Source of the DNA: Branchiibius hedensis
GTDB lineage: Bacteria > Actinomycetota > Actinomycetes > Actinomycetales > Dermatophilaceae
DNA: 64,000 bases
Assembly (NCBI RefSeq): GCF_900108585.1
Contig: NZ_UESZ01000001.1
Coordinates: forward strand, 992,001 to 1,056,000
Direction of reading: 5' to 3'
The position numbers and the translations under genes are program-made. Shown here in pieces: positions 19,201 to 55,997 of the stretch (position 1 is its first letter; every line of letters starts with the position of its first letter). Under the pieces are notes generated by a model. The model was not told where the DNA came from. It saw only the letters and a list, made by a program, of their open reading frames with translations, and ran no database searches.

Positions 19201-21864
19201 GTGAGCAGCGACAGCTTTGGTGCCAAGGGCACGCTCGAGGTAGGGGACAGCTCCTACGAGATCTACCGGATCAACACCGTCGAGGGGAGTGCGACGCTGC
19301 CGTTCAGCCTCAAGGTGCTGTTGGAGAACCTGCTGCGGACCGAGGACGGCGCCAACGTCACCAAGGAGCAGATCAGCGCCCTGGGTAGCTGGGATGAGAA
19401 CGCCCAGCCCGACACCGAGATCCAGTTCACCCCGGCCCGCGTGATCATGCAGGACTTCACCGGTGTGCCGTGTGTCGTGGACCTGGCCACCATGCGCGAG
19501 GCCGTCGTCGACCTGGGCGGTGACGCCACCAAGATCAACCCGCTGGCTCCCGCCGAGATGGTCATCGACCACTCCGTCATCATCGATGTGTTCGGCCGCC
19601 CGGATGCCTTCGAGAAGAACGTCGAGATCGAGTACGGCCGCAACCGCGAGCGCTACCAGTTCCTGCGCTGGGGCCAGACCGCGTTCGACGACTTCAAGGT
19701 CGTCCCCCCGGGCACCGGTATCGTGCACCAGGTCAACATCGAGCACCTTGCCCGCACGGTCATGACCCGTGACGGCAAGGCCTACCCCGACTCCTGCGTC
19801 GGCACCGACAGCCACACCACCATGGTCAACGGCATCGGCGTCCTCGGCTGGGGCGTCGGCGGTATCGAGGCCGAGGCCGCGATGCTCGGCCAGCCGGTCT
19901 CGATGCTCATCCCGCGCGTGGTCGGCTTCAAGCTGAGCGGCAAGATCCCCGCCGGTGTGACCGCGACCGACGTCGTGCTCACCATCACCCAGATGCTGCG
20001 GCAGCACGGTGTGGTCGGCAAGTTCGTGGAGTTCTACGGCGAAGGCGTCGCCTCGGTGCCGCTGGCCAACCGCGCCACCATCGGCAACATGAGCCCCGAA
20101 TTCGGTTCCACCTGTGCGATTTTCCCGATCGACGAGGTCACGCTGGACTACCTGCGCCTGACCGGTCGCTCCGAGGAGCAGGTCGCCCTCGTTGAGGCCT
20201 ACACCAAGGAACAGGGCCTGTGGCACGACCCGTCGCACGAGCCGCGCTTCTCTGAGTACCTGGAACTGGACCTGTCGACGGTCGTGCCGTCGATCGCCGG
20301 CCCGAAGCGCCCGCAGGACCGGATCGTGCTGGCCGAGTCCAAGCAGCAGTTCGCGCTCGACGTGAAGAACTACGGGGTCGAGGGCAACTACCGCGAGGTG
20401 CCGGTCACCGACGCCAGCGGAAACTCCTTCGGGCTCAAGGACGGTGCGGTCGTGATCGCCTCGATCACCTCCTGCACCAACACCTCCAACCCGTCGGTGA
20501 TGATGGCCGCTGCGCTGCTGGCTAAGAACGCCGTCGACAAGGGCCTGACCTCCAAGCCGTGGGTGAAGACCTCCATGGCGCCGGGTTCGCAGGTCGTCAC
20601 CGGTTACTACGAGAAGGCCGGTCTGTGGCCCTACCTGGAGAAGCTCGGCTTCTACCTGGTCGGTTATGGCTGTACGACGTGTATCGGCAACTCCGGTCCG
20701 CTGAACGAGGAGATCTCGGCGGCCATCAACGAGAACGACCTGACCGTCACCTCGGTGCTGTCCGGTAACCGTAACTTCGAGGGCCGCATCAACCCCGACG
20801 TGAAGATGAACTATCTGGCCTCGCCGCCGCTGGTCATCGCCTACGCGCTCGCGGGCACGATGGACTTCGACTTCGACACCGACCCGCTGGGTCAGGACGC
20901 CGCAGGCAACGACATCTTCCTGAAGGACATCTGGCCGGACCCGGCGCAGGTCGAGTCCACCATCGCCGCGTCCATGGACCGCGACATGTTCATCAAGGAC
21001 TACGCCGACGTCTTCGCCGGTGACGAGCGCTGGCAGTCGCTGCCCACCCCCGAAGGCAACACCTTCGAGTGGGCTGAGGACTCGACGTACGTGCGTAAGC
21101 CCCCGTACTTCGAGGGTATGGCGCACACGCCGAGCCCGGTCAGCGACATCTCGGGTGCCCGCGTGCTGGCCAAGCTGGGTGACTCGGTGACCACCGACCA
21201 CATCAGCCCGGCCGGTTCGATCAAGGCCGACAGCCCGGCCGGCAAGTACCTCACCGAGCACGGCGTCGAGCGCAAGGACTTCAACTCCTACGGCTCGCGG
21301 CGCGGTAACCACGAGGTCATGGTGCGCGGCACCTTCGCCAACATCCGGCTGCGCAACCAGCTGCTGGACGACGTCGAGGGCGGCTACACCCGCGACTTCA
21401 CCGTCGAGGGCGCGCCGCAGGCGTTCATCTACGACGCCGCGGAGAACTACGCCAAGGCCGGCACCCCGCTGGTCGTGCTGGGTGGCAAGGAGTACGGCTC
21501 CGGGTCTTCGCGTGACTGGGCCGCCAAGGGCACCCGGCTGCTGGGTGTGAAGGCGGTCATCACCGAGTCGTTCGAGCGCATCCACCGCTCCAACCTGATC
21601 GGGATGGGTGTGCTGCCGCTGCAGTTCCCGGCCGGTCAGAACGCCGACTCGCTCGGCCTGGACGGCACCGAGACCTTCGACATCACCGGCGTGACCGCGC
21701 TGAACGAAGGGACGACGCCCAAGACCGTGCACGTCACCGCCACCAAGACCGACGGCTCGAAGGTCGAGTTCGACGCGGTGGTCCGGATCGACACCCCCGG
21801 TGAGGCCGACTACTACCGCAACGACGGCATCCTGCAGTACGTGCTGCGTTCGCTGGTGAACTGA
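19201..21864 (+). CDS. acnA: Aconitate hydratase
   Basis: An 887-aa monomeric aconitase (IRP1/AcnA type) interconverting citrate and isocitrate in the TCA cycle. The 4Fe-4S ligands are visible in [13 protein letters not shown] and [14 protein letters not shown]; the HMPTDSH-equivalent is [12 protein letters not shown]. The C-terminal swivel domain carries the [13 protein letters not shown] active-site loop. GTG 19201 follows a strong AAGGAG. It is preceded by a palindromic operator candidate and followed by a clear hairpin terminator, so it appears to be monocistronic. Confidence 0.96.
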
Positions 21865-21957: not shown

Positions 21958-22066
21958 TGGCACGCGATTGCGATGTGCTCGCACGATGGGCATGCGATTG
22001 CGGGGTGAAGCAGCACATGACCACGATCCTGTGCCAGTCGCGACGCCTGACCGCAATTCCGTGCTA
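21958..22066. repeat. Dyad-symmetric four-box intergenic element, copy A
   Basis: Four related 14-bp boxes: TGGCACGCGATTGC (21958-21971) and GGGCATGCGATTGC (21988-22001) in direct orientation, then ACGATCCTGTGCCA (22023-22036) and GCAATTCCGTGCTA (22053-22066) as inverted versions. The boxes in each pair start exactly 30 bp apart, and both nested pairs share one dyad centre (22012). The sequence between boxes is not symmetric. It lies between the acnA terminator and the convergent small membrane-protein gene. A second copy with the same geometry lies at 55890-55997. Confidence 0.75.
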
Positions 22067-22070
22067 CTGG

Positions 22071-22271
22071 CTACCTCTTGGCGATGAAGTCTCGGCCGAA
22101 CGCCCAGTAGGCGCCGACGAGAATCGACAGCACGATCGCGACGACGAGCACCACGGAGTGCGCGCCGGTCATGGCGTAGACGACCCAGACGATGCCGGCG
22201 ACGATGCTGAGGATCACCCCGGCGCGGTTGGCGGTCTGAAGTTGCTGCGGGGAGTCAGTCGGTTGAGTCAT
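22071..22271 (-). CDS. Small two-helix membrane protein
   Basis: A 66-aa protein with a polar N-terminus (MTQPTDSPQQLQTANR), two hydrophobic helices (about 17-34 and 38-57) joined by TGAHS, and a basic C-terminus (GRDFIAKR). AGGAGAG sits 5 bp before the ATG, a good ribosome site, which supports a real gene. I recognise no family; small proteins of this shape are common in actinobacteria. The gene stands alone, its 3' end a few bases from the four-box repeat. Confidence 0.7.
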   Translation of the reverse strand: MTQPTDSPQQLQTANRAGVILSIVAGIVWVVYAMTGAHSVVLVVAIVLSILVGAYWAFGRDFIAKR

Positions 22272-43864: not shown

Positions 43865-43885
43865 CGCCCCCTTCCCGACTTTTGA

Positions 43886-43928
43886 AGCGCAATTCACGCC
43901 GACCGCACGGGGTCGCGTGAGTTGCGCT
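43886..43928. terminator. Hairpin between convergent hemQ and msrB
   Basis: Arms AGCGCAATTCACGC and GCGTGAGTTGCGCT pair over 14 bp with one mismatch around a 15-nt loop. Its position suggests a bidirectional terminator. The right arm resembles part of the four-box repeat (GCGTGCCAGTTGCGC at 55960), so it may be a relative of that element. Confidence 0.6.
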
Positions 43929-43945
43929 ACGGAAGTGCCGGGGAA

Positions 43946-55395: not shown

Positions 55396-55471
55396 GCGGA
55401 CATAGCTCAGTTGGTAGAGCGCAACCTTGCCAAGGTTGAGGTCGCCGGTTCGAGCCCGGTTGTCCGCTCCA
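55396..55471 (+). tRNA. tRNA-Gly(GCC), copy 1
   Basis: Acceptor GCGGACA/TGTCCGC closes the cloverleaf; the anticodon stem-loop AACCT-TGCCA-AGGTT gives anticodon GCC, and GGTTCGAGCC is the T-arm. Discriminator T is followed by CCA in the genome (55469-55471). The 73-nt body is identical to copy 2. Confidence 0.97.
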
Positions 55472-55494
55472 GTGGTCGCTTGTCGGCCGCGCCT

Positions 55495-55565
55495 GGTGGA
55501 GTGGCCGAGAGGCGAGGCAACGGCCTGCAAAGCCGTCTACACGGGTTCAAATCCCGTCTCCACCT
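55495..55565 (+). tRNA. tRNA-Cys(GCA)
   Basis: Acceptor GGTGGAG/CTCCACC, anticodon stem CGGC/GCCG with loop CTGCAAA (anticodon GCA), T-arm GGGTTCAAATCCC, discriminator T; no encoded CCA. It is 71 nt, the usual size for actinobacterial tRNA-Cys. Confidence 0.96.
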
Positions 55566-55644
55566 CGGACCCCGTTTTGGTGCGGGGGAGTGCACTCGGA
55601 TAGAGTTCACGACGTTGTCCAGCCGGTAACGGTGCGGACAGCAG

Positions 55645-55717
55645 GCGGACATAGCTCAGTTGGTAGAGCGCAACCTTGCCAAGGTTGAGGTCGCCGGTTC
55701 GAGCCCGGTTGTCCGCT
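55645..55717 (+). tRNA. tRNA-Gly(GCC), copy 2
   Basis: Identical over 73 nt to the first tRNA-Gly(GCC) gene, 249 bp downstream of it, but followed by CTG instead of CCA. A tandem duplication spanning the Gly-Cys interval is likely. Only the mature tRNA, not the flanking DNA, is conserved. Confidence 0.97.
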
Positions 55718-55744
55718 CTGATGGTCGTTGATTCGGCCGTCTTT

Positions 55745-55819
55745 GGGCGATTGGCGCAGCGGTAGCGCGCTTCCCTGACACGGAAGAGGTCACTGGTTCG
55801 ATCCCAGTATCGCCCACCA
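55745..55819 (+). tRNA. tRNA-Val(GAC)
   Basis: Acceptor GGGCGAT/ATCGCCC, anticodon stem CTTCC/GGAAG with loop CTGACAC (anticodon GAC), T-arm CTGGTTCGATCCCAG, discriminator A and an encoded CCA (55817-55819). It is the last tRNA of the Gly-Cys-Gly-Val array. Confidence 0.97.
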
Positions 55820-55889: not shown

Positions 55890-55997
55890 TGGCACACGAT
55901 TGCCGTTGGCCGCGACGAGTGGCACGCGATCGCTGGGATTTCGGCGAAGTCACGCAAACGCGTGCCAGTTGCGCCGAGTGGGAGCAATCACGGAACA
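55890..55997. repeat. Dyad-symmetric four-box intergenic element, copy B
   Basis: Four 14-bp boxes: TGGCACACGATTGC (55890-55903) and TGGCACGCGATCGC (55920-55933) direct, GCAAACGCGTGCCA (55954-55967) and GCAATCACGGAACA (55984-55997) inverted. Box starts are 30, 34 and 30 bp apart, compared with 30, 35 and 30 in copy A (21958). Both nested pairs share the centre 55943.5. Sequence between boxes is neither symmetric nor well conserved with copy A. It lies just after the tRNA-array terminator and before the deaminase gene. Confidence 0.75.

Follow-up and report, generated by a model that had tools for sequence, protein, structure and literature searches.

The four-box element at positions 21958 to 22066 of the window (the whole 64-kb stretch of DNA that was analyzed) is confirmed as a real DNA repeat that is scattered through the genome. 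Two further copies flank a single gene, C1:2988696-2989757, which encodes a 354-aa protein (P0001), and the element therefore belongs to a nuclease-plus-repeat system. We consider it fairly probable that the element in question, referred to as copy A, is a dispersed non-coding repeat of that gene, REP-like in character, which would be bound and cut by the encoded AbiEi-EDxHD nuclease and probably spread or maintained by it. The evidence from relatives points to a repeat-and-nuclease system in which many related bacterial enzymes have private repeats in the same arrangement.

Copy A and a second copy in the window, copy B, are laid out as follows.

Positions 21958 to 21971, plus strand: copy A, box 1 (TGGCACGCGATTGC), 14 of 14 matches to TGGCACGCGATTGC
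Positions 21988 to 22001, plus strand: copy A, box 2, 12 of 14 matches to TGGCACGCGATTGC
Positions 22023 to 22036, minus strand: copy A, box 3, inverted, 10 of 14 matches to TGGCACGCGATTGC
Positions 22053 to 22066, minus strand: copy A, box 4, inverted, 11 of 14 matches to TGGCACGCGATTGC
Positions 21958 to 22066, no strand assigned: copy A, entire four-box element, profile E 1.5e-27 with a profile made from the copies themselves
Positions 55890 to 55997, no strand assigned: copy B, entire four-box element, profile E 1.2e-28, with boxes at 55890 (plus), 55920 (plus), 55954 (minus), and 55984 (minus)

A preliminary description had placed two direct and two inverted boxes at these starts in copy A, with a dyad center at 22012 common to both nested pairs and with 10 to 14 matches per box. 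The positions were re-found exactly, recomputation put the center of both pairs at 22012, and the recount gave 14, 12, 10, and 11 matches. Copy B follows the same plan except that its inner spacing is 34 rather than 35. The unit of 14 bp given in that description has to be extended, since an alignment of all 20 boxes revealed that the 5 bp on the 5′ side of the boxes (ACGAY-like) are likewise conserved, which makes the unit ∼20 bp long. The fixed-geometry scores of copies A and B were 47/56 and 49/56, that of copy A being favored because the consensus is its own box 1, and across 100 simulated versions of the 64-kb window (order-1 Markov) the best chance arrangement scored 34. A search of the window with the single box alone returned 10 matches at three or fewer mismatches as compared to 12.9 expected, which is not significant, and it is the four-box arrangement, rather than the single box, that stands out in the window.

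Using a sequence-only profile built from the copies, five four-box places were found in the 4.0-Mb genome, each with an E value of 2.6e-11 or better.

C1:1013958: copy A
C1:1047890: copy B
C1:2894473: copy C, with divergent frames on its two sides, upstream of a PurF-like gene (glutamine amidotransferase/phosphoribosyltransferase)
C1:2988643: copy D, on one side of the 354-aa nuclease gene, overlapping the 3′ end of the gene as called
C1:2989828: copy E, on the opposite side of the same 354-aa nuclease gene

The next-best match had an E value of 0.12, leaving a clear gap; because the profile was built from the same five copies, the informative part of the scan is this gap and the absence of a sixth copy. 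Each copy was matched on both strands because of its dyad. A chance origin of the four-box copies was rejected on account of scores far above the simulated maximum and the clear genome-wide gap. The preliminary description knew two loci, had proposed such a profile scan, and had taken a restriction to two loci as telling against the element; the genome holds five copies instead, three beyond A and B with two of these bracketing one gene, and there are matches in the related genome G003.

Intergenic position was inspected for copies A, B, and C and for a window repeat at 43870, and no common context emerged for the four-box copies. Copy A lies between a convergent aconitase gene (ends at 21864) and a 66-aa frame (22071-22271, minus strand), in agreement with the convergent placement previously suggested, and copies B and C depart from it, the former having as neighbors a tRNA gene (ends at 55816) and a cytidine/deoxycytidylate deaminase-family gene and the latter lying between divergent frames. 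Four consecutive tRNA genes are located upstream of copy B (window 55396-55816), two of which share both their score and the sequence read. As to the suggested placement after terminators, a GC-rich inverted repeat is visible by eye ahead of both A and B, but a consensus scan around these two copies found no promoter and no terminator.

P0001, the product of the gene between copies D and E, is predicted to consist of an AbiEi-like DNA-binding region followed by a Vsr/I-Bth0305I-like nuclease domain. It matched MTES_1575 with an E value of 1.1e-5, which is below the curated cut-off, and DUF559 weakly, and in PADLOC it matched AbiEi (E 3.1e-5). In an AlphaFold2 model built with 10 sequences (pLDDT 84, pTM 0.80), residues 15-191 align to AbiEi (6y8q, Z 9.0, 171 residues, rmsd 5.3), the N-terminal fold also matches 1zel (Z 7.2), and residues 196-300 align to the homing endonuclease I-Bth0305I (3r3p, Z 9.4, 95 residues, rmsd 2.3), with further nuclease-domain fold matches to NGO0050 (Z 8.7) and Vsr (Z 6.7). 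Foldseek alone gave no match to the model at E ≤ 0.001. Among 73 homologue segments of at least 230 aa plus P0001, E199 is conserved in 73/74, D232 in 71/74, and D259 in 72/74, and H249 and the EYDG motif are conserved by construction because both sit in the search pattern. From their order and the fold, we infer that E199, D232, H249, and D259 are the EDxHD residues. The three scanned neighbors of the gene encode two LMWPc phosphatase-family proteins and an amino-acid permease, with no defense, toxin, or DUF1814 gene recognized among them. Carriage of P0001 by phages or plasmids was rejected, as tblastn found it in none of 50,697 phage records (E ≤ 1e-5) and, with partial matches only, in 2 of 72,556 plasmid records (E ≤ 1e-10).

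The arrangement of P0001 recurs within the same genome. A search with P0001 gave five paralogues, itself included, each lying between two copies of a repeat whose sequence is particular to it, and a Pfam search added two nuclease genes with an N-terminal region that are also flanked (63 nt at 86%, and 51 nt at 76%, inverted). All 7 AbiEi-nuclease genes found in the genome thus sit between private repeats, in a count that leaves out a 1,204-aa MTES_1575 frame at C1:2609802. The seven flanked proteins all match PADLOC AbiEi (E 5.9e-4 to 8.3e-13). The eighth, the product of a bare 164-aa Vsr gene, matches Vsr and not AbiEi, and its gene is without flanking repeats. The flank scores of the seven range from 38 to 171 versus shuffle maxima of 28 to 33, the four-box pair being the weakest (38 versus a maximum of 30), and the Vsr gene scores 23 versus 32. 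One paralogue, C1:1917451-1918356, has a hairpin family with 2 flanking and 15 dispersed places in the genome, one of the latter being located in the window.

Positions 43870 to 43944, no strand assigned: second nuclease-linked repeat, of the hairpin family of paralogue C1:1917451-1918356, unrelated to the four-box repeat, between convergent chlorite-dismutase-family and SelR genes

Homologues in other species were collected by a scan with ten aligned sequences, which returned 80 named loci in mostly actinobacterial genomes, Aeromicrobium and Nocardioides being the commonest. The flank repeats of 51/79 loci scored above the 99th percentile of 1450 random windows from the same loci, and those of 45/79 scored above the control maximum. 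With a cut-off of 37, matching repeats were present on both sides of 47/74 homologues and 0/94 real neighboring genes, and a chance origin of the flanking repeats was rejected by this neighbor-gene control. One of the 80 loci is omitted from the random-window test and six from the neighbor-gene test, their flanks being short, and as both tests include orthologous loci they are not fully independent. The remaining 27/74 homologues have no flanking pair above the cut-off; in at least five of them (L138, L140, L154, L157, and L159) the match begins at residue 145-148, so that the tested left flank lies inside the gene. Inverted repeats scoring above 45 occur in a flank of 30/47 flanked loci and 15/27 others, versus 44/870 control windows, and some of the 27 may therefore hold a one-sided or diverged element. 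A flank test of Pfam-based loci in 7 genomes (10/29 rows above 37, 0/7 frames longer than 1,200 aa above 37) was not counted because its gene ends were rough and it missed known flanked cases (L312, L313, L315, and L319). A stop codon lies inside 7/80 matched segments (L091-L170) in the frame of the match start; these may be inactivated genes or joined or frameshifted matches.

Among the repeats printed for the 45 loci scoring at least 50 are imperfect palindromes as well as tandem arrays, the two copies being paired in either direct or inverted orientation. Since the pairs are direct at some loci and inverted at others, there is no single insertion architecture. Tandem units of ∼51-52 bp replace palindromes in some families (L041, L309, and L310), and what looks like a single tandem unit (GGGCGTGCA...ACGGTTGCGGG) occurs in diverged form in the sister species G026 and G058. 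A collection of 55 repeats contains 51 that are dissimilar to one another. A general k-mer search of these 51 gave only weak k-mer excesses, and the idea of a motif shared among the families was rejected.

The main rival explanation treats the repeats as operators for an autorepressor: the AbiEi-like region would bind the promoter copy, the dispersed copies would form a small regulon or serve as titration sites, and the nuclease domain would have another job. A study of AbiEi and Rv2827c describes autoregulation by both proteins via inverted repeats (PMC7319586), repeats are located upstream of many homologues, and some dispersed copies (B and C) are upstream of genes. Nevertheless, the right copy starts within 46 bp after the stop codon in 22/24 loci with a better direct alignment, and a second copy at this place is not needed for autoregulation. 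Likewise, an operator would be hard to account for between convergent genes, which is where copy A and the 43870 repeat are found. We judge the operator explanation to be unlikely, and read the repeats as the probable targets of the nuclease that they flank.

Comparison of loci indicates that these repeats are private to each enzyme. Repeat-flank similarity was found in 5/3842 pairs of loci without common outer flanks. Protein pairs at least 70% identical share repeat-flank similarity in 28/28 cases, four of which are the same locus twice; all 28 also share outer flanks, so that descent explains the repeat similarity equally well. By comparison, the outer flanks of L149/L163 (69% identity) and L149/L161 (64%) are common and their repeat-flank similarity is absent, and in the pair L115/L122 (38%), with outer flanks in common and a certain flank similarity (64 bits), the printed repeats are different. 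One chromosomal slot in different genera can thus hold AbiEi-nuclease genes that are 38-69% identical with differing repeats, by rapid co-divergence or in-place replacement. Divergence of this strength at one slot, as in L115/L122, would fit an arms race, and together with the PADLOC matches to AbiEi, which belongs to abortive-infection systems, it could suggest a role of the nuclease in anti-phage defense or as a guard of the genome, with the repeats anchoring, inhibiting, or licensing it. We give this suggestion little credence, however, as fast divergence fits selfish turnover as well and the three scanned P0001 neighbors include no defense gene.

Co-occurrence of repeat and enzyme, seen in two samples at the level of genus or family, supports our reading of the repeats as nuclease targets. 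The four-box repeat (E ≤ 0.001) is present in 2/58 genomes, G000 and G003, which are also the only two with a homologue of at least 60% identity. The homologue in G003 is 62% identical to P0001 and is itself flanked by the four-box repeat, its boxes being missed by blastn and found by the profile. Dispersed copies were found in 4/4 repeat families searched genome-wide (four-box, hairpin, Flexivirga, and Nocardioides). The four-box family has three (A, B, and C). For the Flexivirga family, which belongs to an L155-type gene, the minimum counts of dispersed sites are 11 in G026 and 10 in G058. Three genomes have the Nocardioides family at no fewer than 8, 9, and 4 dispersed places, and a fourth genome, whose homologue is ∼66% identical, has none. 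Three Flexivirga congeners with only distant homologues gave no copies of the Flexivirga family at E ≤ 1e-10. The G026 loci are identical to Flexivirga meconopsidis records, and G026 belongs to the same family as the genome of the window; the NCBI taxonomy places Flexivirga in Micrococcales.

The two Flexivirga genomes also permitted a view of repeat turnover, which is real but slow. Nine of the 11 fetched dispersed sites of G026 are common to the 10 fetched from G058, which indicates that movement is slow or past. Site polymorphism is nonetheless present: one dispersed site has the repeat in G026 only, and another has two copies in G058 versus one and a partial arm in G026. Such copy-number changes at orthologous sites are left unexplained by an operator function. 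Neither a clean empty site nor a target duplication was found at the sites compared. At the L235 site, the repeat is present in G026, G058 and G061 carry unrelated reading frames, and G059 and G060 have a short gap; with alleles that are unrelated or gapped, the insertion boundary is unreadable. The frames concerned are a 334-aa lipase-like frame (L290, G058:C1:353000-357600) and a 745-aa frame (L291, G061:C2:353200-359000), which mark a variable insertion spot.

The preliminary description suggested checking whether box geometry is kept while spacers drift, and this is so in two families. In the stretches of G003 holding matches, same-strand box pairs 14-50 bp apart are separated by exactly 30 bp in 55/94 cases, convergent pairs by 34 or 35 bp in 16/28, and the boxes of four-box clusters drift in sequence, with some clusters carrying extra boxes at the same period. 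In the Flexivirga family, the arm-to-arm distance is 54 bp in 19/19 complete copies, which amount to about ten independent cases because they represent nine orthologous sites in two genomes, one of them doubled, and the spacers differ. Fixed spacing with free spacers would be the requirement of a multi-site protein complex on duplex DNA. The interpretation first offered is partly supported: a double-stranded array of helically phased candidate sites for a protein is still the best reading, and the protein may bridge or wrap DNA as first suggested.

Given the dyad symmetry and the inverted repeats enriched in homologue flanks, the element could instead act as an RNA or single-stranded DNA hairpin, whether as a terminator, a structural RNA, or a hairpin substrate. 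The fixed arm spacings are not needed for hairpin loops, however, and the 17-copy hairpin family contains 5 pairs with double changes versus a shuffle mean of 6.0, so that covariation is not above that of shuffles. An Rfam search of the window gave no match except the four tRNAs, and a structural RNA was rejected on these grounds; as noted, copies A and B have no consensus terminator. A hairpin function is therefore highly improbable. The conservation of arms as sequence, with covariation that does not exceed shuffles, would also be expected of operators.

Under the reading of the element as a phased array, the N-terminal AbiEi-like region of P0001 most likely binds single boxes (the ∼20-bp unit). 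With four phased sites arranged around a dyad, the C-terminal EDxHD/Vsr-type nuclease domains would meet and pair across the dyad, and the element would be nicked or cut. Repair of the break or replication across the element might then give rise to copies at new intergenic sites or to local amplification, and the gene would persist between two copies of its own target.

The closest known parallel is the REPtron (REP/REPIN with TnpA_REP/RAYT), in which, as outlined in two reports, one enzyme per repeat family is flanked by repeats and vertically kept (PMC6006769, PMC8049555). The likenesses include an enzyme gene for each family with that family's repeats around it, the coexistence of several families in a genome, each with a separate enzyme, dispersed copies, and repeats that are commoner where the enzyme is present and rare or absent on plasmids. 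Unlike in REPtrons, the enzyme here combines an AbiEi-like region with an EDxHD/Vsr fold and is not a Y1 HUH transposase, and the four-box family consists of repeated sites in a phased array instead of a single simple hairpin. Y1_Tnp (PF01797; RAYT) was absent in 4/4 genomes searched, with a positive control detected in 5/14 known genomes, and a RAYT as the enzyme of these repeats was rejected on this absence. The N-terminal two-domain fold is shared with the AbiE type IV toxin-antitoxin proteins AbiEi and Rv2827c (6y8q and 1zel), which bind 23-bp inverted repeats, four of them in the case of Rv2827c, according to the same AbiE study (PMC7319586). In contrast to AbiE, the AbiEi-like region is fused to a nuclease, the repeats lie to either side of the gene and also elsewhere in the genome, and no toxin gene was recognized among the three scanned neighbors. 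With I-Bth0305I, an EDxHD homing endonuclease related in fold to Vsr, P0001 has in common the catalytic-domain fold, a long putative target, and the conserved E, D, H, and D. I-Bth0305I is encoded by a phage and dimerizes on target DNA almost 60 bp long (PMC3943268), whereas the tblastn search with P0001 gave no phage record and its gene is tied to a dispersed repeat family, not to an intron or a single allele.

We found no description of such a repeat-nuclease system in the open-licence literature. As far as we know, the HUH transposases are the only kind of enzyme with which REP-type repeats of bacteria have been associated. Our broader proposal, to which we assign an even chance, is that the AbiEi-EDxHD nucleases of many Actinomycetota each own, recognize, and propagate private phased palindromic or tandem elements, forming a second, independently evolved REPtron-like world in which enzyme and target co-diverge at fixed slots and a homing-type nuclease has moved from one allele to a dispersed repeat. 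If this is true, widespread repeats are tied to an unrelated nuclease, and repeats linked to an enzyme arose on two or more occasions. It would also explain many unannotated palindromes of high-GC genomes, assign a function to AbiEi-fused MTES_1575/DUF559 nucleases, which have received little study, and make available dozens of natural protein/target pairs with altered specificity.
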